Source of the DNA: Halarcobacter sp.
GTDB lineage: Bacteria; Campylobacterota; Campylobacteria; Campylobacterales; Arcobacteraceae
DNA: 64,000 bases
Reading direction: 5' to 3'
Assembly: GCF_963676935.1 (NCBI RefSeq)
Contig: NZ_OY781470.1
Span: 682,001 to 746,000, forward strand
In this document: piece by piece, positions 1-59,408 of the stretch
Position numbering within the stretch: the stretch's first letter is position 1
Layout of the letters: every line of letters starts with the position of its first letter
The notes under the pieces: generated by a model
The model's input: the letters and a program-made list of their open reading frames with translations, nothing else
The model's database searches: none
Told to the model about the DNA's origin: nothing
Translations under genes and position numbers: made by a program

Positions 1-638
1 TTTATGATGAATATCATGCTTATGAAAATTATAGGGTAATTGTAGAAAAATTTGGAAGTCAGACACCTTTTATAAATATATTACAAGCTGAAATAAATCA
101 TTATGAAGAGTTAACTGTTTTATTAAATAAATATCAAGTTCCTGCCCCATTAAATGATTGGGTTATTAAAGTTGAAACACCTAATTCTATTTTAGAAGCA
201 TCTGAAGTTGGTGTTGCTGAAGAGATTGATAATATTAAAATGTATGATAACTTAATCACTTATGCTAAAGATTATCCTGATGTATTGGATTTATTATATA
301 GACTTCAAGCTGCATCTTATAATAATCATCTACCTGCATTAAGACAAGCAGTTGCGAAACATTCAAATTTAAATATAAATGAAGTAGATGTAAATACGAT
401 CCATCAAGAAAATAGTATTCATAACATTGATGAAGCTATTAGTAAAATGGATGAAATCAGTGCTATGGCATCTAAGTTTTCTACAGGAAATGTAAGTCAA
501 GAAGATATTTTAAAACTTTTAAGTAATTCTAATCTTTCTTTTGTTGGTGGTGCTTTATTAGGTGCTGTAGGTGCTGGAGTATTTTCTCAAGTAACTAAAG
601 ATAAAAAAGAAAATACTACAGAAGAAGAGGAGGTTTAA
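1..638 (+). CDS. Ferritin-like DUF2202 protein with C-terminal membrane helix (5' end outside window)
   Basis: The reading frame is open from base 3, so the start lies to the left of the window and 211 residues are visible. The visible part starts inside a ferritin-like helix with DEYHAY, followed by a second helix with EINHYEE; these E-x-x-H pairs fit the di-iron ligands of DUF2202 proteins. A third helix (LLYRLQAASYNNH) completes the usual DUF2202 ending. After about 60 hydrophilic residues comes a glycine-rich membrane segment (GGALLGAVGAGVF) and a charged tail. DUF2202 proteins are normally soluble, so this helix is unusual. It matches the glycine-rich helices of the small genes that follow within a few bases. 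A role in iron handling at a membrane is inferred from the cluster. Internal ATG codons such as the one at 240 are not the start. Confidence 0.8.
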   Translation, partial: YDEYHAYENYRVIVEKFGSQTPFINILQAEINHYEELTVLLNKYQVPAPLNDWVIKVETPNSILEASEVGVAEEIDNIKMYDNLITYAKDYPDVLDLLYRLQAASYNNHLPALRQAVAKHSNLNINEVDVNTIHQENSIHNIDEAISKMDEISAMASKFSTGNVSQEDILKLLSNSNLSFVGGALLGAVGAGVFSQVTKDKKENTTEEEEV

Positions 639-639
639 T

Positions 640-732
640 ATGCCATTTATACCTTTTGCACTTGGTGCACTTATTGGTGGGTCAGTAGTTGTGTTGTTTT
701 CAAAAACTAAAAAAACTAAAAAGGAGAAATAA
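640..732 (+). CDS. 30-residue membrane peptide
   Basis: ATG at 640 lies one base after the previous stop and is preceded by a strong ribosome binding site (GAGGAGG, 628-634). The product is a proline/glycine-containing hydrophobic helix (MPFIPFALGALIGGSVVVLF) followed by a very basic tail of lysines and threonines. The stop at 730-732 overlaps the next ATG by one base (TAATG), which suggests translational coupling. The same layout, one glycine-rich helix then a charged tail, recurs in the neighbouring genes. No homology can be claimed at this length, but spacing, binding site and overlap support a real gene. Confidence 0.65.
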   Translation: MPFIPFALGALIGGSVVVLFSKTKKTKKEK

Positions 733-983
733 TGTTACCTTTCATTGCTGGAGTTGCAGCTGGTGCTGTAGCTGTTGTTGCGTACAACAATAATAAAGAG
801 ATTAGAAAAAGTGTAAATAGTGGAGCTAAAAAAGCAAAACAATTTGCTGAAGAGGGCTTTGAAAAAACAAAAGAGCTTACAAAAGATGTAAAAGCAACTG
901 TAAGTGAAAAAGTTGAATCAATCAAATCAAAGAAAAAAGAAGAGACAACAGAAGAAAAGGGAGAAATAATTAATGACAACTAA
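732..983 (+). CDS. Small membrane protein with charged helical tail
   Basis: 83 residues. Residues 2-17 form an alanine/glycine-rich membrane helix (FIAGVAAGAVAVVAY). The rest is a long lysine/glutamate-rich amphipathic region that resembles YtxH-like or apolipoprotein-like helices and could lie along a membrane or filament. The ATG overlaps the upstream stop by one base, with a GGAG binding site at 723-726, and the 3' end overlaps the next gene by 11 bases. It is part of the P-type ATPase cluster. Proteins of this kind (one glycine-rich helix plus a charged tail) accompany P1B-6 ATPases in iron-organelle clusters; that link is inference from context. Confidence 0.75.
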   Translation: MLPFIAGVAAGAVAVVAYNNNKEIRKSVNSGAKKAKQFAEEGFEKTKELTKDVKATVSEKVESIKSKKKEETTEEKGEIINDN

Positions 984-1326
984 TTTAGCGATTGATACAG
1001 GTGCACCAAGAAACGTAACTGGTCATGTAGTAAGTGGTTCACTTGCTGCTGGTGCATTAGCTGCAGGAATAAATTATAATAAATATAAAAAAGGTCAGAT
1101 TGGAAAAAATGAGGCTATTCAAGACTCATTAAAACTTTCAATTCAAGGTGGAATTGTTACAGGAAGTTCTATTGCAGTAGCTAATTATGTTGGAGAAGGA
1201 AGTTATATGAAAATGTTAACTGCTCTTTCTATTGGTATGGCAGGAGTTTATGCAGTAGAAAAAATTAATGAAAAGCTTACTCCTAGATTTAAAGAAGAGA
1301 TTATTGAAGAAGAGGAAGAAAAATAA
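973..1326 (+). CDS. Glycine-rich two-helix membrane protein
   Basis: 117 residues. Two alanine/glycine-rich hydrophobic stretches are visible, about residues 17-33 (VVSGSLAAGALAAGI) and 55-70 (IQGGIVTGSSIAVAN), and a third weaker one at 80-95. The C-terminus ends in a run of glutamates. The start overlaps the upstream gene by 11 bases, and the stop shares one base with the next ATG. No named family is recognised with certainty. Helix packing through small residues and the acidic tail recall magnetosome and ferrosome membrane proteins, where acidic tails are thought to bind iron. That role is inferred only from context. Confidence 0.75.
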   Translation: MTTNLAIDTGAPRNVTGHVVSGSLAAGALAAGINYNKYKKGQIGKNEAIQDSLKLSIQGGIVTGSSIAVANYVGEGSYMKMLTALSIGMAGVYAVEKINEKLTPRFKEEIIEEEEEK

Positions 1327-1664
1327 TGGTTGATAATACAAATAATACAATAAATGCAAATCCATACATTACTCAAACAAGTCAAACAGCAAATACTCAA
1401 CAAGCACAGGATGTTAATTTAGTAAATCAAAATCCATATATTGATAATAGTGCCAATAGTAGTTTATTAGGTTCTTTTGATACAAATAAGTTTTTAATGG
1501 GTGCTGTTGTAGGAGCTCTTGGTGCATATATTTTAACTAATGAAAATGCTCAAAAAGCTATTTTTAAAACAATTGCAAAAGGAAGTACTCTTTTTAGTGC
1601 TGGTATTGAAGAGATGAAAGAAAGATTTGAAGATGCCAAAGCTGAAATGGAAGCACAAGATTAA
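1326..1664 (+). CDS. Asn/Gln-rich single-helix membrane protein with NPYI repeats
   Basis: 112 residues. The first 50 are polar and rich in Asn, Gln and Thr, with the motif NPYI occurring twice (residues 12-15 and 36-39). A membrane helix follows at about 55-70 (KFLMGAVVGALGAYIL). The tail is amphipathic and charged (EEMKERFEDAKAEMEAQD). The helix-plus-tail part resembles the DUF6110/YtxH-like small proteins found next to P1B-type ATPases. The ATG shares one base with the upstream stop, and the ATPase gene follows after 8 bases. The polar N-terminal half could be a protein-protein interaction segment. Function unknown. Confidence 0.75.
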   Translation: MVDNTNNTINANPYITQTSQTANTQQAQDVNLVNQNPYIDNSANSSLLGSFDTNKFLMGAVVGALGAYILTNENAQKAIFKTIAKGSTLFSAGIEEMKERFEDAKAEMEAQD

Positions 1665-1672
1665 GAGATAAA

Positions 1673-3784
1673 ATGAGTCAAAACAATATAAAACTTTTAC
1701 ATAAAACTCAAAAAAGAGTTAGATTTTATTTAGAAGAATTAAAAAAAGAGGATTTTAATATTTCATCTTTAGTTCAATATTTGCAATCTATTGATGGTAT
1801 TAATAGTGTAAGGGTTAATAAAAAAATTGGTTCTATTGTTTTTGAACATGATGGAAAAGCTTTAGACACTATAGAGGATTTATTAATAAAACTTGATTTA
1901 GCTAGATATAAAGTTTGTGATACTTTTTTAAGTGATTGTGTAGATTGCGTAGGTGAAGAAAAACCGAGTTTAAATGGAGTTTTAAGAGCTAGTACTGCTT
2001 TAGGTGCAGAAAGATTTATTGATAATGATATAGCCAAATTTGCAATTACTTCATATGCTTCAAAACCTTTACTTATAGAAGGAGCAAAAGAGCTCTTTAC
2101 AGAAGGACTTACTTCTAAAGTGTTAGAAGCAACAGCAGTTGGTGTTAGTATTGCTAGAAAAGATTATTTTGCTGCAAATAGTACTAACGCAATGTTGGAA
2201 TTAGGCGAATATATAGAAGAGACCACTGTTCATAAAAGTGATGATTTAATCAAAGAATTAGCAAAACCAAATGTTAAAAAAGCTTGGATAGAAGTTGAAG
2301 AAAATGGAAAAGCTGTACAAAAACTTGTAGATTCTGCACAAATTAAAATTGGTGATATTGTTATTGTTGGAGCAGGGGATACTATTGCAATTGATGGACA
2401 TATCATTGCCGGTACAGCTTCAGTTAATCAAGTATCGATGACAGGTGAGAGTGAACCTGTTACAAAACAAAGAGGTGGCAGAGTTATCTCAGGAACTGTT
2501 GTTGAAGAGGGAAGACTTAAAATTTGGGCAGAATATGTAGGCGAGGATACTGCAACTGCTAGAATTAAAAACTATATTGCTTCATCTTTAAATGAAAAAT
2601 CAGCAGTTGGTTTAAAAGCAACAAAACTTGCCGATAAGCTTGTCCCTGTTACTTTAGGTTTAGCTGGAGTTTCATATTTTATTAATAAAGATTTTGAAAG
2701 TGTAGCTGCTGTACTTCAAGCTGATTATTCTTGTGCTTTAAAACTTGCAACTCCTGTTGCTTTTAAATCATCTATTTCAAAAGCTGGAAAAGATGGAATT
2801 ATGATAAAGGGTGCTAAGTCAATAGAAGCACTTAACAATGCAGACACTTTTGTTTTTGATAAAACAGGAACTTTAACTTATGGAGAACTTGAAGTTGAAT
2901 CAATAAGCTCTTTTGATAAAAATTGGCTTGAAGAGGATATTCTAAATCTTACAGCTAGTGCCGAAGAACACTATTTTCATCCTGTTGCAGAGGCTGTTGT
3001 AAAAGCTGCAAGAGAAAAAGGGTTTGTTCATATGCACCATGAAGAGGTTGAGTTTATAGTTGCCCATGGTGTAAAAACTATTGTAAATGATAAAGAGGTT
3101 GTTATTGGAAGTAGACACTTTTTAGAGGATGATGAAAAAATAGATTTTTCTAAATATGAAGAAAAAATTGAAGAGTGCTTATTAGATGGTAAAACTTTAT
3201 TATATGTGGGATATGACAAAAAACTCCTTGGTACAATAGGGATGAGAGATAAAGTAAGAGAAAATGCAAAAGAGACTTTAGAAAAACTTAGAACTCTTGG
3301 AGCAAAAAAGCTAGTTATGCTTACAGGTGATATTCAAGAAAAAGCAGATGTTTTAGCTAAAGAATTAGGTATTGATGTTGTATTTGCAAATATGAGACCT
3401 ACTGGTAAAGCAGATGTTGTTAAAAAATTAAAAGATGAAGGTGCTAATGTTGCTTTTGTTGGAGATGGTATAAATGATGCTCCTGCACTTATGAGTGCAA
3501 ATGTAGGTATAAGTATGAGTAAGGGTGCAGATATTGCAAAAGCTACTGCTGATATAGGTCTTTTGATTGATGATATATCAGCTATTTCAGATGTAAAAGA
3601 GTTAGCAAATAAAACTATGAAACTTATAAATTATAATTTTGCTGCTACAGTTGGAATTAATAGTTTGATTTTAACTGGAGCAACAGTAGGTTTATTTTCT
3701 CCTGTAACAACTGCATTTTTACATAATGGAACAACAATAGGTTTATTACTTAATTCAATGAAAGGAGTAAATGTAAAAAAATAG
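1673..3784 (+). CDS. P1B-type metal ATPase, probable ferrosome iron pump (FezB-like, P1B-6)
   Basis: 703 residues with a full P-type ATPase core: TGES (actuator domain, T257), phosphorylation site DKTGT (D396), the HP of the nucleotide-binding domain (H436-P437), TGD and GDGINDAP (G597). The membrane metal-site motif is YSCALKLATP (C354) instead of CPCALGLATP. This loss of the first Cys and the Pro points to the P1B-6 group, the type that loads iron into ferrosomes. Residues about 8-65 resemble a degenerate HMA domain without a CxxC. The membrane segments before the actuator domain are weak and short compared with CopA, again as in this subgroup. It lies in an operon with small glycine-rich membrane proteins, the layout of fez clusters. 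Direction and metal are inferred; a Cu/Zn pump is less likely given the missing ligands. Confidence 0.8.
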   Translation: MSQNNIKLLHKTQKRVRFYLEELKKEDFNISSLVQYLQSIDGINSVRVNKKIGSIVFEHDGKALDTIEDLLIKLDLARYKVCDTFLSDCVDCVGEEKPSLNGVLRASTALGAERFIDNDIAKFAITSYASKPLLIEGAKELFTEGLTSKVLEATAVGVSIARKDYFAANSTNAMLELGEYIEETTVHKSDDLIKELAKPNVKKAWIEVEENGKAVQKLVDSAQIKIGDIVIVGAGDTIAIDGHIIAGTASVNQVSMTGESEPVTKQRGGRVISGTVVEEGRLKIWAEYVGEDTATARIKNYIASSLNEKSAVGLKATKLADKLVPVTLGLAGVSYFINKDFESVAAVLQADYSCALKLATPVAFKSSISKAGKDGIMIKGAKSIEALNNADTFVFDKTGTLTYGELEVESISSFDKNWLEEDILNLTASAEEHYFHPVAEAVVKAAREKGFVHMHHEEVEFIVAHGVKTIVNDKEVVIGSRHFLEDDEKIDFSKYEEKIEECLLDGKTLLYVGYDKKLLGTIGMRDKVRENAKETLEKLRTLGAKKLVMLTGDIQEKADVLAKELGIDVVFANMRPTGKADVVKKLKDEGANVAFVGDGINDAPALMSANVGISMSKGADIAKATADIGLLIDDISAISDVKELANKTMKLINYNFAATVGINSLILTGATVGLFSPVTTAFLHNGTTIGLLLNSMKGVNVKK

Positions 3785-3803
3785 TTTTACATTTAAAATA
3801 TAT

Positions 3804-4472
3804 ATGGAAAAACAAGATATAACTATAGAAGAAAAAAAGCCTCTTTTACCAAGAATTGAGATTGATTTAGATACTAAAAAAGAGATAGCAAAAATCGGCA
3901 TGACAGCCACAATGGGAATAACCGTTGCGACATCAATGTATATGAAAAATAAATTTATGAAAAGACTTCATGTTGTTGCTGGTGTAGCTTTAGTGGGGTT
4001 TTCTTATTGGCATCATACCTTATATCAACCAACAAAGAAAAAATCTAAAAATATTAATACTCAAAAAGAAACAATAATTTCAAAAAAAGATGAAATTATA
4101 GAAGAGCTTAATGAAGATAGTTTCGCAATATCTTTAAATAACTTTTTTGTTGAATTAGCAATAAAGGGTAATCTAACCCATGTAGAATTTAAATCATTTC
4201 AAGAAAAAATAGAGACTTTATTGGATACTTATGAAGTTCCATCTATAAATATCTTACTTGACATTACTCAAATAGAAGGTGTTGAGTTAAAGGCTTTATG
4301 GGATGATTTAACTTTTACTATGAAGCATATAAAAGAGTTAAATAAAATTGCTATTGTTGGTAATAATAAACTTGAAGAGTATTCTGTACATTTAGTTGAT
4401 AAAGTATTCTCTTTTGATTTAGAGTATTTTGAAGAATATGATAAAGCTAAAACTTGGCTTTTAAATAGTTAG
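3804..4472 (+). CDS. Membrane protein with C-terminal SpoIIAA-like (STAS) domain
   Basis: 222 residues. Residues 1-25 are polar. Two short hydrophobic stretches at about 30-45 and 55-70 (VVAGVALVGFSYWHH) are followed by a lysine-rich linker. Residues about 105-222 match the SpoIIAA-like fold (PF11964 type): NILLDITQIEGVELKALWDD is typical of that family's core strand and helix. Stand-alone SpoIIAA-like proteins are soluble and poorly understood; fusion to a membrane part is not common. The gene follows the ATPase by 19 bases and ends the operon, with a strong hairpin just downstream. A structural or lipid-associated role in the same compartment is possible but not shown. Confidence 0.7.
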   Translation: MEKQDITIEEKKPLLPRIEIDLDTKKEIAKIGMTATMGITVATSMYMKNKFMKRLHVVAGVALVGFSYWHHTLYQPTKKKSKNINTQKETIISKKDEIIEELNEDSFAISLNNFFVELAIKGNLTHVEFKSFQEKIETLLDTYEVPSINILLDITQIEGVELKALWDDLTFTMKHIKELNKIAIVGNNKLEEYSVHLVDKVFSFDLEYFEEYDKAKTWLLNS

Positions 4473-4483
4473 AGTTAGTAGTC

Positions 4484-4519
4484 TTAAATACTAAAGGTGC
4501 TTTAGCCTTTAGTATTTAA
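4484..4519 (+). terminator. Hairpin ending the ferrosome-like operon
   Basis: Perfect 14-bp inverted repeat (arms 4484-4497 and 4506-4519, core CTAAAGG/CCTTTAG) with an 8-base loop, 12 bases after the last stop. There is only a weak T-run, but position and stem strength fit a terminator. Confidence 0.7.
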
Positions 4520-4665: not shown

Positions 4666-6993
4666 ATGGATTACAATTTATCAATAAAAGGTATGACTTG
4701 TGCAGCTTGCTCAGGTAGAATAGAAAAACTTTTAAATAAAAATGAAGAGATACAAGAAGCTAATGTAAATCTTACAACAAACAAAGCTTTCTTTAAAAGC
4801 GATGAAAAACTAGATTTAGACCCAATTATAGAAAAAATTGAAAAATATGGTTTTGAAGTGGAAAAAGAAAAAATCGAATTTGATATTAGTGGTATGAGTT
4901 GCTCAGCTTGCTCTAGTAGGATAGAAAAACAAGTAGCAAAAATGGATGGGGTAGTTGAATCAAATGTAAATCTTACTACAAATAAGGGAACTTTTACTAT
5001 TTTAAAAGGCTTACAAACTAGTGATTCAATTATAAAAAGAATAGAAAAACTAGGCTTTAGTGCAAAAGAGGCTAAAGGTGTTGAGTTAAATAATAACGAT
5101 GAAGAGTTAAAAGAGAAAAAGATTAAACTGATTATCTCTGCTATATTTAGTATTCCTATGCTTTTAGGGATGTTTGATATGATATTTTCATTGAGTATTA
5201 TTCCCGATTTTTTCTCAAATGGATATTTTCAACTTCTTTTAGCAACTGTTGTTCAGTTTTATTGTGGAGCACAATTTTATAAAGGTGCGTATGCAAACCT
5301 AACACACTTTAGTGCAAATATGGATGTACTAGTAGCTATGGGGACAAGTGCAGCGTATATCTTCTCTATTTATAATATAACAACAGGTGGACACTTATAT
5401 TTTGAGACTTCAGCAGTTTTAATTACTCTTATTTTATTGGGTAAATATTTAGAACAAAGAGCAAAATCTAAAACAAGTGAAGCTATTTCAAAACTTTTAA
5501 ATCTAAGTCCTAAAAAAGCAAATGTAATAAGAGATGAAAAAGAGATTACAATAACTACTAATGAGGTTTTAAAAGGTGATATTATTTTAGTAAAGCCAGG
5601 TGAAAAGATACCTGTTGATGGAGTTGTTATTGAAGGGGAAAGTTATATTGATGAATCTATGGTTACAGGGGAGAGTAAGCCCGTAAAAAAAATTATAGAA
5701 AATAGTGTTATTGGTGGAACAATTAATGGAAATTCAACATTTAAATATAAAGCTACAAAATTAGGTGATGAGAGTTTTCTCTCCCAAATAGTAAAAGTGG
5801 TAGAGCAAGCCCAAGGAAGTAAAGCTTCTATCCAAAGATTTGCAGATGTTATCTCAGGTTATTTTGTACCAACAGTTATAGTAATAGCTTTTTTAGTGTT
5901 TTTATATTGGAACTTTTTAGCAAAAGATACCACTTTTGAAACTGCTATTATAAATATGGTTGCAGTTTTAGTTATAGCTTGCCCGTGTGCTTTGGGACTT
6001 GCAACTCCAACTTCTATTATGGTTGGAAGTGGAAAAGGGGCACAAAATGGAATACTTTTTAAAGGTGGGGAACACCTTGAAAATATGCAAAAAGTTGATA
6101 CAGTAGTTTTTGATAAAACAGGAACAATAACTCTTGGAAAACCAAGTGTAACAAAGGTTTTGGCAAAAGATGAAAATAGAGTTTTACAATTAGCCGCATC
6201 CATTGAAAAACATTCAGAACATCCTTTAGGAAAAGCAATTACAGAGTTTTTTGAAGGAAAACTTTTAGAGGTTAAAAATGTAGAAGCTATTACGGGCTTA
6301 GGGATTAAAGGCGAAATTGATTCCAAAGAGATTTTAGTTGGTTCAAAAAAATTTATTGAACAAAATATTAAAATAGAAAATGATGAGATAAAAGATGAAG
6401 TTGGTTCACTTATTTATGTGGCTTATGATAACTTTTATGAGGGAGTTATTGTAGTTGCAGATGAGATTAAAGCAGATACAAAACAAGCAATACAAAATCT
6501 TAAAGATTTAGGAATTGATGTATATATGTTAACAGGAGACAATGAAAAAACTGCTTTACATATTGCAAAACAAGTAGGTATTGAACATGTTTTTGCAGAG
6601 GTTTTACCAACACAAAAAAGTGAAAAAGTAAAACAACTTCAAGAGAAAGGAGCTTTTGTTGCAATGGTTGGTGATGGGATAAATGATGCACCGGCACTTG
6701 CAGTTGCAAATATTGGAATTGCCATTGGTAGTGGAACTGATATTGCCATAGAAGCCTCTGATGTAACTTTACTTCAAGGTGATATTACAAGTGTTTCAAA
6801 AGCGATAAATCTTAGTAGAAAAACTATGGCAAATATAAAACAAAACCTGTTTTGGGCATTGATTTATAATATAATAGGTATTCCAATTGCAGCAGCAGGA
6901 TTACTTAATCCTATAGTTGCAGGAACTGCTATGGCATTTAGTTCAGTATCTGTTGTAACAAATGCTTTAAGATTAAAACAAACAAAATTATAA
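4666..6993 (+). CDS. copA: Copper-exporting P1B-1 ATPase CopA
   Basis: 775 residues. Pumps Cu(I) out of the cytoplasm using ATP. Two N-terminal HMA domains carry GMTCAAC (C12, C15) and GMSCSAC (C79, C82). Eight hydrophobic segments surround the actuator (TGES), the membrane copper site CPC (C439, C441, in CPCALGLATP), the phosphorylated Asp483 in DKTGT, the HP motif and GDGINDAP. Length and layout are those of standard bacterial CopA. It has its own promoter after the preceding terminator, and a copZ-type chaperone follows after 13 bases. Comparison with the P-type ATPase just upstream is useful: this one keeps every canonical copper ligand, the other does not. Confidence 0.95.
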   Translation: MDYNLSIKGMTCAACSGRIEKLLNKNEEIQEANVNLTTNKAFFKSDEKLDLDPIIEKIEKYGFEVEKEKIEFDISGMSCSACSSRIEKQVAKMDGVVESNVNLTTNKGTFTILKGLQTSDSIIKRIEKLGFSAKEAKGVELNNNDEELKEKKIKLIISAIFSIPMLLGMFDMIFSLSIIPDFFSNGYFQLLLATVVQFYCGAQFYKGAYANLTHFSANMDVLVAMGTSAAYIFSIYNITTGGHLYFETSAVLITLILLGKYLEQRAKSKTSEAISKLLNLSPKKANVIRDEKEITITTNEVLKGDIILVKPGEKIPVDGVVIEGESYIDESMVTGESKPVKKIIENSVIGGTINGNSTFKYKATKLGDESFLSQIVKVVEQAQGSKASIQRFADVISGYFVPTVIVIAFLVFLYWNFLAKDTTFETAIINMVAVLVIACPCALGLATPTSIMVGSGKGAQNGILFKGGEHLENMQKVDTVVFDKTGTITLGKPSVTKVLAKDENRVLQLAASIEKHSEHPLGKAITEFFEGKLLEVKNVEAITGLGIKGEIDSKEILVGSKKFIEQNIKIENDEIKDEVGSLIYVAYDNFYEGVIVVADEIKADTKQAIQNLKDLGIDVYMLTGDNEKTALHIAKQVGIEHVFAEVLPTQKSEKVKQLQEKGAFVAMVGDGINDAPALAVANIGIAIGSGTDIAIEASDVTLLQGDITSVSKAINLSRKTMANIKQNLFWALIYNIIGIPIAAAGLLNPIVAGTAMAFSSVSVVTNALRLKQTKL

Positions 6994-7006
6994 ATAAGGA
7001 GATTTT

Positions 7007-7216
7007 ATGAAAGAATTAGAAATTGGTGTAAATGGTATGAATTGTGGTCATTGTAAAATGGCTGTTGAAAATGAATTAAAAGATTTATCTGGTGTAAGTA
7101 ATGCAGAGGTTAGTTTAGAAGAAAAAAAAGTAACTGTAAGTTTAGAAGATGAATCTTTATCTGTTGATAAACTTTATGAAGCTATTGAAGAAGCAGGATT
7201 TGAACCTGTAAAATAG
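7007..7216 (+). CDS. copZ: CopZ-like copper chaperone
   Basis: 69-residue single HMA domain with the metal-binding motif GMNCGHC (C13, C16). Proteins of this size bind Cu(I) in the cytoplasm and hand it to CopA. The gene lies 13 bases after copA with a good TAAGGAG binding site, so the two are co-transcribed. The His in the CxxC spacer (GHC) is common in the CopZ/ZntA-type chaperone group; context favours copper. Confidence 0.9.
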   Translation: MKELEIGVNGMNCGHCKMAVENELKDLSGVSNAEVSLEEKKVTVSLEDESLSVDKLYEAIEEAGFEPVK

Positions 7217-7223
7217 TTTTATA

Positions 7224-7249
7224 AAAAAGCAGCTATTATGCTGCTTTTT
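7224..7249. terminator. Bidirectional terminator between copZ and hcp
   Basis: AAAAAGCAGC and GCTGCTTTTT form a 10-bp stem with a 6-base loop, flanked by A and T runs on both sides. It overlaps the last codons of the convergent hcp gene. Confidence 0.8.
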
Positions 7250-8561
7250 CAATAAGAAGTTTTTTTAGATCCTCTTTTGCATCACCTGTTAAGTGAAGGT
7301 TGAAATTTTCAACTAAGAAGTTAAATATATCTTCATTTACAAATTGTGGTGGTTTTGGTCCTAGGTAAATATCTTTTATACCTAAAGAGAATAGGGCTAA
7401 AAGAATAATAACAGCTTTTTGCTCCATCCAAGAAAGTACAATAGATATAGGTAGATCATTTATAGGAGTATTTAAAGCCGAGCTTACTGCTTTTGCAATC
7501 TCTACTGCGCCATTTGAATCATTACATTGTCCTAAGTCTAAATATCTAGGGATACCAGTACCTTCTATTTCCCCAAAATCTATGTCATTGAATCTAAATT
7601 TACCACAACTTGAAGTTATAATCACACAATCTTCTGGTAAATTTTCAACTAGTTCTCTATAATAATTTCCGGCACTTCCTGGTGCATCACATCCTGCAAC
7701 TACAAAAAATTGTCTTATTTTTCCCTCTTCTACTGCTTTTAAGATTTGTGGCGCAAGTGTTAAAATAGTTTTATAGTGATGACCTGTTGTTAGAGTAAGA
7801 TTCTCTTGCATATTTGTATCTTCACATTGTAAAGTTTTTTCTATTAGTTCATCAAAGTTATCATCAACTATTGCTGTACCACCTTCAATACCCACAATTT
7901 TGTATGTGAATACTCTATCAACATATGTTGCACTTTTTTTAGGTGGTACAATACAGTTTGTACTAACAACAAAAGTTCCTTTGAATTTTTCCATTAGTTT
8001 TGCTTGGTCAAACCATGCTTTTCCTACATTTCCTCTTAGGTGGGGATATTTTTTTAATTCAGGATATCCATGGGCTGGAAGCATCTCTGAGTGAGTATAT
8101 ATATTTATACCTTTGTCTTGCGTAGCTATAAGAAGTTTTTCTAACATATCTAAGTTGTGACCTGTAACTAATATAGCTTTACCCTCAACCACATTTTGAC
8201 TAACTTTCACAGGACTTGGAATACCAAACTTATTTGTGTGTGCATTTGATAACTTATCCATAACTTCTACCCCAGCACTTCCCACTTTCATAAGTTGGTT
8301 TATATGATCATTAAAATTAAAATTCACATTTGTAAGTGTAAAATATAAAGTTTCACTAATAATATCATCTACATTTTTAGTTTGATTTGGTTTTAGTTCA
8401 TTTAAATGCTCTCTATATGCACTTAATCCCTTTAGTCCAAAAATCATAATATCTTGAAGTCTAGCAAGGTTTTCATCTTTTCCACATGTTCCAGTTGTTG
8501 CGCCTGTAGAACCACAGCCATTTGGAGCACTCATTTCACATTGATAACAAAACATACTCAT
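7236..8561 (-). CDS. hcp: Hybrid-cluster protein / hydroxylamine reductase (short form)
   Basis: 441 residues, about 100 fewer than class I and II Hcp. The N-terminus has the proximal-cluster cysteines in a C-x2-C-x7-C-x9-C spacing (C5, C8, C16, C26). Hybrid-cluster motifs follow: THSEMLPAHGYP, a TNC motif, GCDAPG and SSCGKFR. The missing segment is the second helical bundle after the first cysteines, as in class III Hcp. The family reduces hydroxylamine and nitric oxide in the cytoplasm and protects against nitrosative stress; in E. coli it also transfers NO to protein thiols. No hcr reductase gene is adjacent. A perfect FNR-type box lies 58-71 bases before the ATG, which fits anaerobic or NO-dependent induction. 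Single-gene transcript, convergent with copAZ. Confidence 0.92.
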   Translation of the reverse strand: MSMFCYQCEMSAPNGCGSTGATTGTCGKDENLARLQDIMIFGLKGLSAYREHLNELKPNQTKNVDDIISETLYFTLTNVNFNFNDHINQLMKVGSAGVEVMDKLSNAHTNKFGIPSPVKVSQNVVEGKAILVTGHNLDMLEKLLIATQDKGINIYTHSEMLPAHGYPELKKYPHLRGNVGKAWFDQAKLMEKFKGTFVVSTNCIVPPKKSATYVDRVFTYKIVGIEGGTAIVDDNFDELIEKTLQCEDTNMQENLTLTTGHHYKTILTLAPQILKAVEEGKIRQFFVVAGCDAPGSAGNYYRELVENLPEDCVIITSSCGKFRFNDIDFGEIEGTGIPRYLDLGQCNDSNGAVEIAKAVSSALNTPINDLPISIVLSWMEQKAVIILLALFSLGIKDIYLGPKPPQFVNEDIFNFLVENFNLHLTGDAKEDLKKLLIEKAA

Positions 8562-31399: not shown

Positions 31400-31414
31400 T
31401 GCAACTTGATTGCA
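31400..31414. promoter_or_regulatory. Zur-type box 2
   Basis: TGCAACTTGATTGCA, 13 of 15 matches to the box at 42641. It is 12 bases before the znuA ATG, overlapping the start of its leader, a position suited to repression. Confidence 0.65.
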
Positions 31415-31426
31415 AAAAGGATAGAA

Positions 31427-32410
31427 ATGAAATTAATATTATTTATGTTGTTAAGTTTAAGTAGTTTAGTTCTTGCAAAAGAAGTAACAGTATCTATACT
31501 TCCTCAAAAATACTTTGTAGATAAAATTGCAAAGGGTAAAGTAGATGTAAATGTGATGGTTAAACCAGGTGCAAGTCCAGCAACTTATGAACCAAAAACA
31601 TCACAAATGAAACTTTTATCTAAGTCTATTGCATATTTTTCTATTGGAGTACCATTTGAAAAAGTATGGTTAGAAAAATTTGAAAGTGCAAATAAAAATA
31701 TGCTTATGGTAGATACTTCAGAAGGTATTAAAAAACTTCCAATTGCTGCACATGAGCATCATGAAGATGAAGATCATGCAGATGAGCATCACGACCATGA
31801 AGAGCATGCTGATGAAAACCATGAACATGAAGAACATGCTGATGAAAACCATGATCACGAAGAACATGCAGATGAAAACCATGAACATGAAGAGCATGCA
31901 GATGAACATGGACATGAACATTCTGGTTTAGATCCACATATCTGGCTTGAACCAAACTTAGTTAAAATTCAAGCAAAAAACATTTATAATGCCTTAGTAA
32001 AAGTTGATTCAGAAAATAAAGAATTTTACAAAAATAACTTAGACAAGTTCTTAGTTGAATTAGATACATTAGATAAAAAAATTGAATCAATTTTGGAAGA
32101 TTATAAAGATAAAGCATTTATGGTTTTTCACCCATCTTGGGGATATTTTTCAAAAAGATATGATTTAGAACAAATCTCAATTGAAATTGAAGGAAAAGAG
32201 CCTAAGCCTGCACAACTTGTAGAATTGGTAAAAGAAGCAAAAATTCATGATATAAAAATAGTTTTTGTAGCTCCTCAATTTTCTCAAAAAGGTGCTAAAA
32301 CTATATCTAAGAGTATTAATGGTAATGTTGCTACAATCAATCCCTTAGCTGAAAAATGGGATGAAAATTTAATAAAAGTAGCTGAAGAAATTGCAAAATC
32401 GTATAAATAA
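31427..32410 (+). CDS. znuA: Zinc-binding periplasmic protein ZnuA
   Basis: 327 residues from MKLILFMLL, placed 11 bases after AAAAGG; a signal peptide covers about 1-18. It belongs to the cluster A-I metal-binding proteins: VSILPQKYFVDKIA and PGASPATYEPK at the start, GLDPHIWLEP and VFHPSWGYFSKRY with metal-ligand His residues. Between the first ligands and the rest is a His/Asp/Glu-rich loop of about 55 residues built from 10-residue units, which traps zinc in ZnuA proteins. It would normally feed ZnuBC, but those genes are absent here. Instead the next gene, overlapping by 20 bases, encodes a ZevAB-like fusion. Regulated by two upstream boxes. Confidence 0.92.
   Translation: MKLILFMLLSLSSLVLAKEVTVSILPQKYFVDKIAKGKVDVNVMVKPGASPATYEPKTSQMKLLSKSIAYFSIGVPFEKVWLEKFESANKNMLMVDTSEGIKKLPIAAHEHHEDEDHADEHHDHEEHADENHEHEEHADENHDHEEHADENHEHEEHADEHGHEHSGLDPHIWLEPNLVKIQAKNIYNALVKVDSENKEFYKNNLDKFLVELDTLDKKIESILEDYKDKAFMVFHPSWGYFSKRYDLEQISIEIEGKEPKPAQLVELVKEAKIHDIKIVFVAPQFSQKGAKTISKSINGNVATINPLAEKWDENLIKVAEEIAKSYK
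31775..31921 (+). repeat. 30-bp tandem repeat in the His-rich loop of znuA
   Basis: Four full 30-bp units (from 31775, 31805, 31835, 31865) and a partial fifth, each encoding H-A-D-E-N/H-H-x-H-E-E. In-frame unit gain or loss would change the zinc-loop length. Confidence 0.85.
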
Positions 32411-50148: not shown

Positions 50149-51330
50149 TTAGTTTAACATCTCTAAAGCTTTTTTTAGAGCTTCTATTAGTTTATTAATA
50201 TCTTCATAGTCATTGTAAAAAGCTAAAGAAACTCTAATTGTTCCTCTTATATTAAGTTGTTTCATAATTGGTTGTGCACAATGGTGTCCAACTCTTATAG
50301 CAATACCCATTTTATCTAATAGTATTCCAATATCATCATGGGAAATATTTTCAAAATTAAAACTTTTGCTTCCTATACAGTTTTCACTATCATTATAAAA
50401 AATTATTCCAGGAAGTTTTTCAAGTTCAAGCTCAAGATAATTGTAAAGATCTTTTTCTATTATCTCTATATTTTCATATCCTATATGTTTTAGATATTTT
50501 AAAGCCTCTCCAAAACCAATAACTCCTGCAATATTTTGTGTTCCTGCTTCAAATTTAAAAGGTGCATCAAGTAGAGTGGAACTATTATAATCAACTTCAT
50601 GAATAGTCGCACCACCTGTTTGATAAGGTTTTAACTCTTTTAAATATTTATCTTTTACATAAATAGCCCCAACTCCTGTTGGTCCAAATGTTTTGTGTGA
50701 GGAGATAGCCACAAAATCTACATCTAATTCTTTTACATCCATTTTTGTATGTGCTAAACTTTGTGCGGCATCTATTAAAACTACACTATCATATTTGTGA
50801 GCTAGGTGAATTATTTTTATAATATCGTGAACTTTTCCAAAAGCATTTGATATATGAGTTATACTTACAAAAGATTTTGGATTGTTTTTTAAAATTTTTT
50901 CATAATCCTCAAAATCGAAATTTAGGTTACTATCGCACTTTACAACCTCAAGTCCATTGTTTAAACTTCTTCCTTGCATATGCCATGGAACAATATTTGA
51001 ATGGTGTTCTAATGAAGAGATAATAACAGTTTTATAATCCTTTGTAAAAGAATTAGCAATAAAATTGATTGACTCACTCACTCCCTTAGTAAAAATTATC
51101 TCTTCTTTCGAAGATGCATTTATGAACTCTTTTAAAATGTTTCTACTCTCTTCATATTTTTGTGTTGCAGTATTTGCATCATTAAAACTACTTCTATGAG
51201 TATTTGCACAATATTTTTCATAATATTCTACTTGCGAATCGATAACACATTTAGGCTTTTGTGTTGTTGCTGCATTATCTAGATATACTGTATTTGAGTG
51301 TTTGAAGTATGGAAAATCTTTTTTAAACAT
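50149..51330 (-). CDS. sufS: Cysteine desulfurase SufS
   Basis: 393 residues, group II cysteine desulfurase. PLP Lys in SSHKTFGPTGVGAI; catalytic Cys at about 351 in RVGHHCAQPIM with the short loop of SufS-type enzymes. It removes sulfur from cysteine for cluster assembly by SufBCD, passing it through SufE. Its start overlaps the sufD end by 8 bases. The start codon for MFKKDFPYFKHS has good spacing to a GAGAA site. Confidence 0.93.
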   Translation of the reverse strand: MFKKDFPYFKHSNTVYLDNAATTQKPKCVIDSQVEYYEKYCANTHRSSFNDANTATQKYEESRNILKEFINASSKEEIIFTKGVSESINFIANSFTKDYKTVIISSLEHHSNIVPWHMQGRSLNNGLEVVKCDSNLNFDFEDYEKILKNNPKSFVSITHISNAFGKVHDIIKIIHLAHKYDSVVLIDAAQSLAHTKMDVKELDVDFVAISSHKTFGPTGVGAIYVKDKYLKELKPYQTGGATIHEVDYNSSTLLDAPFKFEAGTQNIAGVIGFGEALKYLKHIGYENIEIIEKDLYNYLELELEKLPGIIFYNDSENCIGSKSFNFENISHDDIGILLDKMGIAIRVGHHCAQPIMKQLNIRGTIRVSLAFYNDYEDINKLIEALKKALEMLN

Positions 51331-52159
51331 TTCTTTCTCCCTCTAATTCTTGAAGAAATTCTTTTATTTTAATATCTTCTATATTATCGTATACTTCATT
51401 TTCAAAAGCTTTTAGAAGCATCTGTTTTGCTTTTTTATTCTCTATACCTCTTGATTCTAAATATAAAAGTTGTTCTTTATTTAAACTCCCAGTTGTAGCA
51501 CCATGGGCAGCTTCAAGCTCATCAATATTTATTTCAAGATGAGGTTGTGCAAAAATTACTGCATCATCACTTAATAATATTGTATTAGAGTTTTGTAACA
51601 CTTTTGAGTTTAATGCTTCTTCATTTACTACACTTAAAGCTTCAAATGTTGCTTTTGAAGAATCATCTAGAATATGTTTGTATTTAATATCACTAAAACA
51701 ATTTTGATTATTGTGAAATGTTTTAAATATAGATTTTGAATTAGTAGTGTTTGCTATTTTTACTAAACCATAAATATTTAGATTAGAATTAATACTATTT
51801 AGTTTAGTATTAAATTGATTGATATTTTTACCTTTTCCTAATTCTATATTAGTCATCTTTATCTTTGCATCATTTTTTAAATCAATATTGTATTCTAATT
51901 CAATATTTGAATTTTCACCAATATTTTGATATTTCATATATTCTAAATTTCCATTATCTTCAACTATTAATTCTCTCGTAAATTTTTCATTTAAGTCATT
52001 TCCTGCAAATACTTCTATAATAGAAGCTTTAATACCCTTTTTTATTCTTATTTTCAAAGAATTAGTTTTTTCCTCTTTGGGATAATATATTAATTTTATA
52101 GGTTCATTTGTATTTTCATCAATTAAAAGTTCTTCATTTTTAAGATTCATAAGTCTCAT
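51323..52159 (-). CDS. sufD: SufD component of the SUF scaffold (short)
   Basis: 278 residues, shorter than E. coli SufD (about 420) since the N-terminal helical region is reduced. The right-handed beta-helix core and the end AHGATTGSLNKEQLLYLESRGI with the conserved His-Gly are clear. It forms the SufBC2D complex where clusters are built. Overlaps sufC by 20 bases and sufS by 8. Confidence 0.88.
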   Translation of the reverse strand: MRLMNLKNEELLIDENTNEPIKLIYYPKEEKTNSLKIRIKKGIKASIIEVFAGNDLNEKFTRELIVEDNGNLEYMKYQNIGENSNIELEYNIDLKNDAKIKMTNIELGKGKNINQFNTKLNSINSNLNIYGLVKIANTTNSKSIFKTFHNNQNCFSDIKYKHILDDSSKATFEALSVVNEEALNSKVLQNSNTILLSDDAVIFAQPHLEINIDELEAAHGATTGSLNKEQLLYLESRGIENKKAKQMLLKAFENEVYDNIEDIKIKEFLQELEGERNV

Positions 52160-52901
52160 TTTTAATTCCTATTCCTTCATAACCTTTGCTGTCAAGTTCT
52201 AAAGCTAAGTTGTAATCACCAGTTTTTACAATTTGCCCATCTTGCATAATATGTACGAAATCTGGTTTAATTTGTGATAATAGTTTGTCATAGTGAGTAA
52301 TCATTAATATTGAACGATTACCATCTAATAGTTCATTTATAACTTTTGCAACGGTTTTAATCGCATCAACATCTAATCCTGAATCAATCTCATCTAATAA
52401 AATTAGATCAGGTTTTAATAATAATAGTTGGATTAATTCATTTCTTTTTTTCTCCCCACCACTAAAACCATCATTTAAATCCCTTTGTAGAAGTTTTTTA
52501 TCAATATCAAACTTTCCTAATTCTTCTTTTGTCAATTTTAAAAAACTGATTGCATCTAACTCTTCTTCTTTATTATATTTTCTTTTTTCATTTACGGCTG
52601 TTCTTAAAAAGTAGCTGTTATTTACTCCTGGAATCTCCACTGGATTTTGAAAACTCATAAAGATACCTTCATTTGCCCTATCACTTACACTTAAATCTAA
52701 TAGATTTTTATCTTTATATTTAAGTTCACCTTCTTTTACTTCGCAATCATAGTGTGCACTTAATGTTTTTACTAAAGTTGATTTTCCTGCTCCATTTTGT
52801 CCCATAAGAACATGCACTTCACCTTTTTTTATATCTAGGTCTAAACCTTTTAATATCTCTTTATTATCTATATTAACTTTTAAATTTTTTATATTAAGCA
52901 T
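52140..52901 (-). CDS. sufC: SufC ATPase of the SUF complex
   Basis: 253 residues with Walker A GQNGAGKSTLV, Q-loop FMSFQNP, signature FSGGEKKRNEL and Walker B LILLDEIDSGLD, then the H-loop ITHYDKLL. ABC-type ATPase without membrane part; drives conformational change in SufB/SufD. Sequence LDVDAIKTVAKVIN is typical for SufC. Confidence 0.95.
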   Translation of the reverse strand: MLNIKNLKVNIDNKEILKGLDLDIKKGEVHVLMGQNGAGKSTLVKTLSAHYDCEVKEGELKYKDKNLLDLSVSDRANEGIFMSFQNPVEIPGVNNSYFLRTAVNEKRKYNKEEELDAISFLKLTKEELGKFDIDKKLLQRDLNDGFSGGEKKRNELIQLLLLKPDLILLDEIDSGLDVDAIKTVAKVINELLDGNRSILMITHYDKLLSQIKPDFVHIMQDGQIVKTGDYNLALELDSKGYEGIGIKNETYES

Positions 52902-52929
52902 GATATACCTCCTATTTTTTTTCTTTTTA

Positions 52930-54366
52930 TTAACCTACACTTCCCTCTAAAGAGATACTTAATAACTCTTTAGCTTCAGCTGCAAACTCCATTGGTAACT
53001 CTTTTAATACCTCTTTACAAAAACCATTTACAATCATAGCAATTGCATCCTCTTCTTCTATCCCTCTTTGATTTAGATAAAATAGTTGCTCATCTGAAAT
53101 TTTTGAAGTTGTTGCTTCATGTTCAATCTGCGCTGAAGAGTTTTTTATCTCATGGTATGGAAATGTGTGTGCTTTACATTTGTTTCCAATTAATAAAGAA
53201 TCACACTCCGAAACATTTCTCGCATTTTTTGCATTTTTCCCAATTCTTACCAATCCTCTGTAGGCATTTACACCTTTCATAGCTGAGATACCTTTTGAGA
53301 TAATTGTTGATTTTGTATTTTCACCTAAGTGAATCATTTTTGTACCAGTATCAGCTTGTTGGGCATGACTTGAAATAGCAACCGAATAAAACTCTCCAAC
53401 AGAATTTTTACCCTTTAAGATACATGATGGATATTTCCATGTAATAGATGAACCAGTTTCAACTTGTGTCCAAGATATTTTTGAGTTTTCACCTTTACAT
53501 AAACCTCTTTTTGTAACAAAGTTTAAAATACCACCTTTACCCTCATCATCACCTGGAAACCAGTTTTGAATAGTTGAGTATTTTATTTGTGCATTATCTA
53601 AGGCAATTAACTCTACAACTGCTGCATGAAGTTGTCTATCATCTCTACTTGGAGCTGAACATCCTTCATTATATGAAACATAACTTCCTTCATCACATAT
53701 TATTAATGTTCTTTCAAACTGACCTGTATTTAATGCATTTATTCTAAAATATGTAGATAACTCCATTGGACATCTAGTATTTGGTGGAATATATACAAAA
53801 CTTCCATCTGTAAATACTGCACTGTTTAATGCTGCAAAATAGTTATCTGCTTTTCCTACAACAGAAGCCAAATATTTTTTTAATATATCTTCATGTTTAT
53901 GTGCTGCTTCTGAGATTGAACAAAATATAATTCCTAATTTTTCTAATTCATCTTGAAAAGTTGTTTTAACTGAAACAGAGTCAAATACAGCATCAACAGC
54001 AACACCTGCTAACATTTTTTGCTCTTCTAAAGGAATACCAAGCTTTTCATATGTTTTTAATATTTCAGGGTCAACTTCATCTAAAGAATCTAAATTCTTT
54101 TTTGGCGCAGAAAAATATGAAATATCTTGATAGTCAATTTTTAGATACTTTAAATTTGCCCAAGATGGTTCTTCCATTTTTAGCCATTTTTTATAAGCAC
54201 TTAATCTAAAGTCTAATAACCATTGTGGTTCATCTTTCTTTTTTGATATGGCTTTTATGACATCTTCATTTAAACCTTTTGGGAATGTATCACTCTCAAT
54301 AAGTGTTTCAAAGCCTAATTTATAGTCTCTATTTAAAATATCTTTTATTTGTTTATTATCACTCAT
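52930..54366 (-). CDS. sufB: SufB scaffold protein
   Basis: 478 residues, full length. C-terminal segments [21 protein letters not shown] and [28 protein letters not shown] are diagnostic. It is the first gene of the order sufB-C-D-S-E-T. The scaffold on which Fe-S clusters are assembled. The start follows AGGGG. A TATTT/AAATA-rich inverted repeat directly upstream of the binding site is shared with the NifS/NifU operon. Confidence 0.95.
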
Positions 54367-57180: not shown

Positions 57181-58407
<1,227 letters not shown>

Positions 58408-58427
58408 AAAAGAAGAAGGAATTAATA

Positions 58428-59408
58428 ATGGCAAAGAATGATTTAATTACTGGTTCAATTTGGGATGAATACTCAAACCAAGTAATCAGAAGAATGGATG
58501 ATCCAACTCATCAAGGTGAAATTACTGAAGAAAGAGCAAAAGAATTAGGTGGAAAATTAATTGTAGCTGATTTTGGTGCAGAGTCTTGTGGTGATGCAGT
58601 AAGACTTTACTGGTGTGTTGATGAAAAAACTGATAAGATTTTAGATTCAAAATTTAAATCTTTTGGTTGTGGTACAGCTATTGCTTCATCTGATGCTATG
58701 GCAGAGCTTTGTATTGGTAAAACTGTTGATGAAGCAGTAAAAATTACAAATATTGATGTTGAAAAAGCTTTAAGAGATCATCCAGATGTTCCTGCAGTTC
58801 CTCCTCAAAAAATGCACTGCTCAGTTATGGCTTATGATGTTATTAAAAAAGCTGCTGGTACATATAAAGGTGTAGATATGGAATCTTTTGAAGAGGAGTT
58901 CATTATCTGTGAGTGTGCAAGAGTTTCTTTAGCAACTATACAAGAAGTTATTAAATTAAATGACCTTAAAACTGTTGAAGAGATTACTGATTATACAAAA
59001 GCAGGGGCATTTTGTAAATCATGTATTAAACCAGGTGGTCACGAAGAAAAAGAGATGTACTTAGTTGATATATTAGAAAATACAAGAGCTGAAATGGATC
59101 ATGAAAGAATGAAATCTGCTGCAGATGCTAGTGAAAGTGGGCAATCTTCATTTGATAAAATGACAATTGTTCAAAGAATTAAACTAGTAGATGAAGTTTT
59201 AGATACTGATATCAGACCAATGCTAATGATGGATGGTGGTAATATGGAGATTATTGATATTAAAGAAAATATTCCACACTATGATATTTATATCAGATAC
59301 TTAGGTGCATGTAATGGTTGTGCATCTGGTGATACAGGTACTTTATACGCTATTGAATCAGTACTTAAACAAAAAGTTGATGAGAATATTAGAGTTTTAC
59401 CTATCTAA
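58428..59408 (+). CDS. nifU: Modular Fe-S scaffold NifU
   Basis: 326 residues in three domains. An IscU-like N-terminal part with cysteines in ESCGDAVRLYW, GCGTAIASSD and PQKMHCSVMA. A central BFD-like [2Fe-2S] domain with IICECARVS and FCKSCIKPGG. A C-terminal Nfu domain with the cluster motif LGACNGCASGDTGTLYAIE. Full length, as in Helicobacter NifU. Co-transcribed with nifS and closed by a strong terminator. Confidence 0.95.
   Translation: MAKNDLITGSIWDEYSNQVIRRMDDPTHQGEITEERAKELGGKLIVADFGAESCGDAVRLYWCVDEKTDKILDSKFKSFGCGTAIASSDAMAELCIGKTVDEAVKITNIDVEKALRDHPDVPAVPPQKMHCSVMAYDVIKKAAGTYKGVDMESFEEEFIICECARVSLATIQEVIKLNDLKTVEEITDYTKAGAFCKSCIKPGGHEEKEMYLVDILENTRAEMDHERMKSAADASESGQSSFDKMTIVQRIKLVDEVLDTDIRPMLMMDGGNMEIIDIKENIPHYDIYIRYLGACNGCASGDTGTLYAIESVLKQKVDENIRVLPI

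Follow-up and report, generated by a model that had tools for sequence, protein, structure and literature searches.

A probable ferrosome (fez) operon with additional subunits in Halarcobacter sp. and other Campylobacterota

Introduction

To our knowledge, only a handful of bacteria have so far been shown to make ferrosomes, which are iron stores enclosed by a membrane. Rhodopseudomonas palustris CGA009 builds them with six fez genes in a row (RPA2333-2338; PMC12016538). The ferrosome sets of Desulfovibrio magneticus (three Fez proteins) and Clostridioides difficile (fezA/fezB) also combine a P1B-6 ATPase with small membrane proteins, and the fez genes of C. difficile are under Fur repression (in part PMC12574912). 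Among the subunits, FezB has been described as a putative ferrous iron transporter, and FezC was shown to bind heme b, its model being a homodimer whose heme sites resemble those of DUF4405 (PMC11334425). The present work concerns an operon of nine genes in Halarcobacter sp., lying across the left edge of a 64,000-nucleotide stretch (hereafter the window; positions 682001-746000 of a 3.1-Mb genome in one contig), which is very probably a ferrosome operon of the six-gene type, extended in the Campylobacterota.

Gene order and relationship to the six-gene ferrosome operon

The nine genes code, in this order, for a P-type ATPase (ATP1), an HMA2 protein, a ferritin-like protein, a protein of 30 amino acids (aa), an 83-aa protein (S83), a 117-aa MamC-like protein, a 112-aa protein (S112), a second P-type ATPase (ATP2) and a protein in which a FezC-like domain is fused to a SpoIIAA-like one. 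The initial annotation had listed a cluster of seven open reading frames (ORFs) followed by a terminator, and was right as to the genes and their order: all seven are present, overlapping or at most 20 bp apart, with a 15-pair hairpin after the last of them. It missed the extent of the cluster, as a whole-genome check places the true operon start 2.7 kb to the left of the window edge, with ATP1 and the HMA2 gene preceding the window. Gene spacings range from -11 to +20 bp from the HMA2 gene through the last gene, and the ATP1-HMA2 gap is 62 bp.

The Campylobacterota survey comprised 397 genomes from 68 genera, with an ATP2 orthologue threshold of E ≤ 1e-95, and resulted in orthologues with 47-95% identity in 136 genomes representing 28 genera and at least seven families. 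Among the loci studied in detail (42, with about 40 genomes used for gene order), the order HMA2 - ferritin-like - S83 - MamC-like - S112 - ATP2 - FezC is almost invariant, and as it is kept in most of the approximately 40 genomes, the clustering is far beyond chance. A copy on an Arcobacter plasmid is laid out in the same way.

A wider scan, run over 85,000 species genomes with a profile of 12 sequences that spans transmembrane segments 1 to 4 (TM1-TM4) and is headed by an Azospirillum sequence, found 513 relatives, the best 80 of which include sequences from Azospirillum, Magnetospirillum, Rhodoblastus, Rhodopseudomonas, Rhodocyclales and Aeromonas. The commonest layout among these relatives outside the phylum is an HMA2-FezC fusion followed by HMA2, S83, MamC-like, S112 and FezB genes, and several proteobacterial copies are flanked by feoAB-like or iron ABC-transporter genes. 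Within the genus Rhodopseudomonas, a single FezB-type match at the threshold used is present in each of 5 genomes out of 16. One complete Rhodopseudomonas genome, 5.27 Mb in size, has the six genes in the expected order near 2.55 Mb, a location that fits the numbering RPA2333-2338, and hidden Markov models (HMMs) built from the Campylobacterota families recover the HMA2 (4e-17), S83 (3e-5), MamC-like (9e-9) and S112 (8e-15) proteins in it. Judging by genus, gene number and position, these six genes would correspond to RPA2333-2338.

Profile-profile comparison with hhalign matched the Campylobacterota families one-to-one with those of the six-gene operon (HMA2 99.5%, S112 99.3%, MamC-like 98.2%, S83 96.8%, FezC domain 95.8%), off-diagonal values being low except for the YtxH-like S83/S112 pair, the HMA2 domains among themselves and the glycine-rich tail of the ferritin-like protein. 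As the shared genes stand in the same order as in the Rhodopseudomonas six-gene operon, and this genus has ferrosomes in CGA009, a ferrosome operon is the reading that we prefer. The interpretation as a ferrosome cluster, already put forward in the initial annotation, is thus supported by the one-to-one subunit matches, by the position of ATP2 in the FezB clade and by the presence of a FezC-like domain.

FezB-type ATPase ATP2

ATP2 had been singled out early as a divergent P-type ATPase with YSC at the metal site, and this description holds. The catalytic motifs DKTGTLT, TGES and GDGINDAP are complete, with ADYSCALKLATP at TM4, the TM4 sequence being ADYSCALKLATPVAF. The DYSC motif of TM4 is near-invariant across the ATP2 family, as are D351, Y352, S353, V362, F364, K365 and other residues, which are absent from the comparators of the CPC type. 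In the maximum-likelihood tree ATP2 groups with sequences of Rhodopseudomonas, Magnetospirillum, Azospirillum, Aeromonas and Vibrio (clade support 100/99); E. coli CopA, E. coli ZntA, the adjoining CopA and ATP1 all fall elsewhere. Placement in a copper or zinc clade, the result named beforehand as contrary to a ferrosome, was therefore not what the tree gave, ATP2 being grouped with Rhodopseudomonas FezB. An assignment of ATP2 to the P1B-1 or P1B-2 (Cu, Zn) ATPases was considered and rejected, with YSC replacing CPC in TM4 and no grouping with CopA or ZntA. The P1B-6 label of FezB comes from the ferrosome literature, and ATP2 is presumed to be the Fe(II) pump of the ferrosome membrane.

FezC-like domain and its SpoIIAA fusion

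The last protein had been annotated as membrane/SpoIIAA-like. The C-terminal SpoIIAA-like domain is indeed there (Pfam E=9.7e-22), but the N-terminal third, which had been missed, is a FezC-like domain corresponding to half of DUF4405. His56 and His70 are invariant in all 37 relatives, a pair that the FezC-type domain of six-gene operons also has, so by its DUF4405-like character and two putative heme histidines the protein qualifies as a predicted FezC. The SpoIIAA tail is found on FezC in six genomes; elsewhere the FezC-like protein stands alone, with a length of about 70-130 aa.

Small membrane proteins and the MamC link

The small membrane proteins are of the fez kind, as had been claimed for them. 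On profile comparison, S83, the MamC-like protein and S112 appear as the counterparts of the third, fourth and fifth gene, respectively, of the six-gene fez-type operon. The further claim that the cluster has additional subunits needs reassigning: the 83-, 117- and 112-aa proteins belong to the regular six-gene set and the 30-aa protein is a relative of the 83-aa family, whereas the true extras are ATP1, the ferritin-like protein and the SpoIIAA fusion. S83 has a match to Pfam YtxH below the cut-off (E=1.7e-4), and its profile matches the 30-aa protein, which was seen in few close genomes only. Pfam HMA_2 gave a weak match in one of 14 control genomes.

The 117-aa protein matches nearly the whole NCBIfam MamC model (NF038051) with E=4e-8 and 33.4 bits, the curated cut-off being 100 bits. 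Half of its relatives (20/40) match MamC at E ≤ 1e-3 and no other family recurs. In the reverse direction, a true MamC, that of Magnetospirillum sp. SS-4, whose score exceeds the curated cut-off, is recovered by the Campylobacterota profile with 5.7e-9 and 30.9 bits (maximum of 400 shuffles, 12.5), and hhalign of the 117-aa family against this true MamC gives 93.7% over 87 columns. No match to it was obtained with the other operon subunits, and the proteobacterial MamC-like subunits compared with it directly are not significant, the link passing via the Campylobacterota family. MamC (Mms13) and the 117-aa protein are remotely homologous over their full length, and each has two membrane helices and a charged loop; the latter differs in scoring 33 bits against a cut-off of 100 and in being encoded outside a magnetosome island. 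The profile matches thus support the 117-aa subunit as a remote homologue of MamC, not a member of the family. MamC possesses an acidic pair, Glu66/Asp70 (PMC6584501). Retention of this pair was considered as well, and was not relied on: an E-x3-D is aligned in the window protein and is absent from most relatives.

Ferritin-like subunit

The four-helix core of the ferritin-like protein was modelled by AlphaFold2 with a predicted local distance difference test score (pLDDT) above 90, the C-terminal glycine-rich helix being of low confidence. The best PDB match of the model in Foldseek is MJ0754 (1.6e-4); bacterioferritins and ferritins come next, at 2e-3 or weaker. The ligand-type residues are E50, E77xxH80, E121 and H156, which are kept in most Arcobacter-like members. 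With a modelled four-helix bundle and E/ExxH/E/H ligands, the protein can be assigned to the ferritin-like superfamily (DUF2202/rubrerythrin). Its earlier designation as a ferritin-like DUF2202 protein stands as regards the fold and the family, 18-19 of 36 relatives matching DUF2202/rubrerythrin, but the window copy itself scores below the DUF2202 cut-off (E=0.05). Homologues lie upstream of S83 in 18 betaproteobacterial fez-type loci, with a weak match in Cereibacter, so the subunit is not peculiar to the Campylobacterota.

Second ATPase ATP1

In ATP1 the SCPC motif is invariant but lacks the proline that usually comes next, and a CxxC precedes the membrane domain; the protein forms a clade of its own in the ATPase tree. 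It was detected in 19 of the 397 Campylobacterota genomes, all 19 of which also carry ATP2, always about 2-2.3 kb upstream of ATP2 and on the same strand. As this linkage to the ATP2 locus is exclusive, ATP1 is considered a dedicated part of the cluster. No ATP1 relatives at E<1e-90 were found in the plasmid search.

Fur-box-like sites

Ahead of ATP1, whose promoter region is taken to lie at L008:7112-7258, there are three intergenic sites within two mismatches of TGATAATNATTATCA, one with one mismatch and two with two, and no site within one mismatch was found in the 64-kb window. Across the 42 loci the region upstream of the operon has 10.5 times the background density of such sites, in many cases 70-90 bp ahead of the first start codon, and Fur control of the operon is putative. 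The sites do not occur in every genome and are mostly absent from genomes outside the Arcobacter-like group, perhaps with Fur sites of a different kind there. The intergenic region with these sites is shared with the divergent imelysin/DHOR/MauG-type genes.

Features of the locus and variant copies

Coordinates are listed in Table 1. The genes divergent from ATP1 constitute a partly iron-linked neighbourhood, and the CopA/CopZ pair 0.2 kb past the operon is probably an independent copper unit. No Rfam elements were found in the 18-kb region searched. Elsewhere in the window, a hybrid cluster protein gene, two sets of Fe-S assembly genes about 3 kb apart and a ZnuA-like protein were noted.

Table 1 Features of the Halarcobacter sp. 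locus. Plain positions refer to the window; L008 denotes locus coordinates including upstream DNA, window position 1 being L008:10002.
Feature	Position	Remarks	Basis
Two imelysin (M75), DHOR di-heme, fatty-acid-hydroxylase-type and MauG/cytochrome-c-peroxidase-type genes	L008:1303-7087	Divergent from ATP1	
ATP1, P-ATPase	L008:7330-9483	Outside window, upstream; 717 aa, MSCPC motif	ORF in whole genome
HMA2 protein	L008:9546-9860	Outside window, upstream; 104 aa	Pfam PF19991, E=6.5e-10
Ferritin-like protein (DUF2202/rubrerythrin-type)	3..638 (+); L008:9863-10639	Cut by window start; full 258 aa; C-terminal glycine-rich membrane helix	ORF, fold model
30-aa single-helix protein	640..732 (+)	Short relative of 83-aa family	ORF
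S83, YtxH-like membrane-anchored protein	732..983 (+)	83 aa	ORF, hhalign
MamC-like two-helix glycine-rich protein	973..1326 (+)	117 aa	ORF, hhalign, NCBIfam MamC
S112, glycine-zipper membrane protein	1326..1664 (+)	112 aa	ORF, hhalign
ATP2, FezB-type P1B ATPase	1673..3784 (+)	703 aa, N-terminal HMA2 domain, TM4 DYSC	ORF, tree, motifs
FezC-like two-histidine membrane domain (~residues 20-75) + SpoIIAA-like domain (116-219)	3804..4472 (+)	222 aa	
Terminator-like hairpin	4484..4519 (+)	15 pairs, closing operon	
CopA-type ATPase (two HMA domains) + CopZ-like HMA protein	4666-7216	0.2 kb past operon	
Hybrid cluster protein (prismane family)	7236-8561 (-)		
ZnuA-like metal-binding protein	31406-32410	Long His/Glu/Asp-rich repeated insert (HEHEEHADEN repeats)	
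SUF-type and NIF-type (NifS/NifU) Fe-S assembly sets	50149-54366 + 57211-59408	~3 kb apart	Recognised by eye

Some copies in other genomes were noted as well. The core operon without ATP1 is located on the 134-kb plasmid CP129951 of Arcobacter sp. DSM 115972 (L063); the nearness of a recombinase gene, at a distance of a few kb, points to horizontal transfer. Two loci (L053 and L054, genomes G117 and G007) contain distant FezB relatives of about 615 aa in which the N-terminal HMA2 domain is missing, and these reduced clusters have neither a ferritin-like nor a FezC-like gene. Two ATP2 orthologues have one in-frame stop each (G374:C1:592044-594149 and G292:C29:106675-108771) and are perhaps decaying copies or assembly errors.

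Comparison with described operons

The Halarcobacter operon shares with that of R. palustris (RPA2333-2338) an orthologous FezB-type ATPase, the HMA2, S83, MamC-like and S112 genes in the same order and a two-histidine domain of the FezC type. In the Rhodopseudomonas type, the operon starts with a fusion in which FezC follows an HMA2 domain, whereas in Halarcobacter FezC is encoded by a separate last gene and is SpoIIAA-fused; the ferritin-like gene, the 30-aa gene and ATP1 go beyond the Rhodopseudomonas type. Betaproteobacterial loci (Aromatoleum, Thauera, Rhodocyclus, Chitiniphilus) likewise have a ferritin-like gene upstream of S83-MamC-S112-FezB; no ATP1 was seen in them and many possess the FezC-HMA2 fusion. 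The sets of D. magneticus and C. difficile, likened here by description and not by sequence, have fewer genes. The ferrosome operon itself is of a known kind, and what is new, as far as checked, is its detailed layout and spread in the Campylobacterota, together with the linkage of ATP1, the fusion to SpoIIAA and the homology to MamC. A partial literature search revealed no paper with Campylobacterota ferrosomes as its evident subject, an earlier notice being possible; of the two ferrosome papers also mentioning Campylobacter, one reviews metals in the gut and the other is a diet study on C. difficile.

Proposed function and alternative explanations

We infer that iron is the cargo, that vesicles are formed and that the single subunits act as follows. 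When iron is scarce, Fur would free the promoter and the operon would be expressed. The glycine-zipper proteins S83, the 30-aa protein, S112 and the MamC-like protein would then shape and line the cytoplasmic membrane into vesicles, to which Fe(II) would be delivered by the HMA2 protein and the HMA2 domain of ATP2. ATP2 (FezB) would move Fe(II) into the vesicle, an amorphous iron-phosphate solid being stored on the return of iron, while the FezC-like cytochrome would transfer electrons across the vesicle membrane and set the Fe(II)/Fe(III) state. The ferritin-like protein, held by its C-terminal helix, may bind or oxidise iron at the surface, and the SpoIIAA-like tail most likely serves in regulation or lipid binding. 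ATP1 would be a second pump dedicated to the ferrosome, the two obvious options being iron release and the loading of another ion.

Several points weigh against a ferrosome. In the Campylobacterota the evidence is computational, leaving iron granules putative, and the iron specificity of ATP2 is deduced solely from orthology. The link to proven ferrosomes passes via the Rhodopseudomonas relatives and not via the FezB/FezC proteins of D. magneticus, Shewanella putrefaciens and C. difficile. The FezC-domain match covers 39 columns. Finally, several other lineages replace the ligands of the ferritin-like protein while the rest of it is conserved, and since metal ligands are lost in part of the phylum, an enzymatic role of this protein is not general.

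Kinship of parts is no proof of vesicles and P1B pumps usually export metal, so the operon might serve plain Fe(II) efflux or detoxification at the plasma membrane, with ATP2 exporting iron and the small proteins as accessory subunits, and no organelle. This is improbable, as the full set of small proteins is kept together, as in the operon type of ferrosome-making Rhodopseudomonas, and the Fur-box-like sites predict induction by iron starvation, the opposite of what detoxification needs. Still less probable is a storage vesicle for Mn, Cu or Zn, with ATP2 as a copper/zinc pump and the downstream CopA/CopZ genes marking a copper locus: their closeness and the CPC motif of ATP1, typical of Cu/Zn/Cd pumps, speak for it, but ATP2 has no CPC and falls outside the CopA/ZntA group, the hairpin divides the operon from the CopA/CopZ unit, and the upstream neighbours and predicted regulation indicate iron. 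A magnetosome-like biomineralisation cluster, to which the MamC match and its reverse confirmation might point, is hardly credible given the score far below the curated cut-off, the lack of any other mam gene recognised when the operon and its near neighbours were scanned for known families, and the occurrence of the MamC-like subunit in fez-type operons of many bacteria.

Implications

Returning to the ferrosome operon, a more specific model can be offered tentatively, its chances being a little short of even: a two-pump ferrosome of the Campylobacterota, in which the dedicated ATP1 of its own lineage, together with the ferritin-like protein and the SpoIIAA-tailed cytochrome, loads or unloads the organelle, and in which a ferrosome subunit shares its ancestry with MamC. 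If true, this common ancestry would tie both bacterial iron organelles together.

As the operon is conserved in about a third of the sampled genomes, membrane-bounded iron storage may be common in the Campylobacterota, a phylum with members at hydrothermal vents, in aquatic habitats and in association with hosts. Its extra parts, namely ATP1, the ferritin-like protein and the MamC-like protein, would provide genetic handles on iron exit, on redox setting and on a possible common origin of ferrosomes and magnetosomes.

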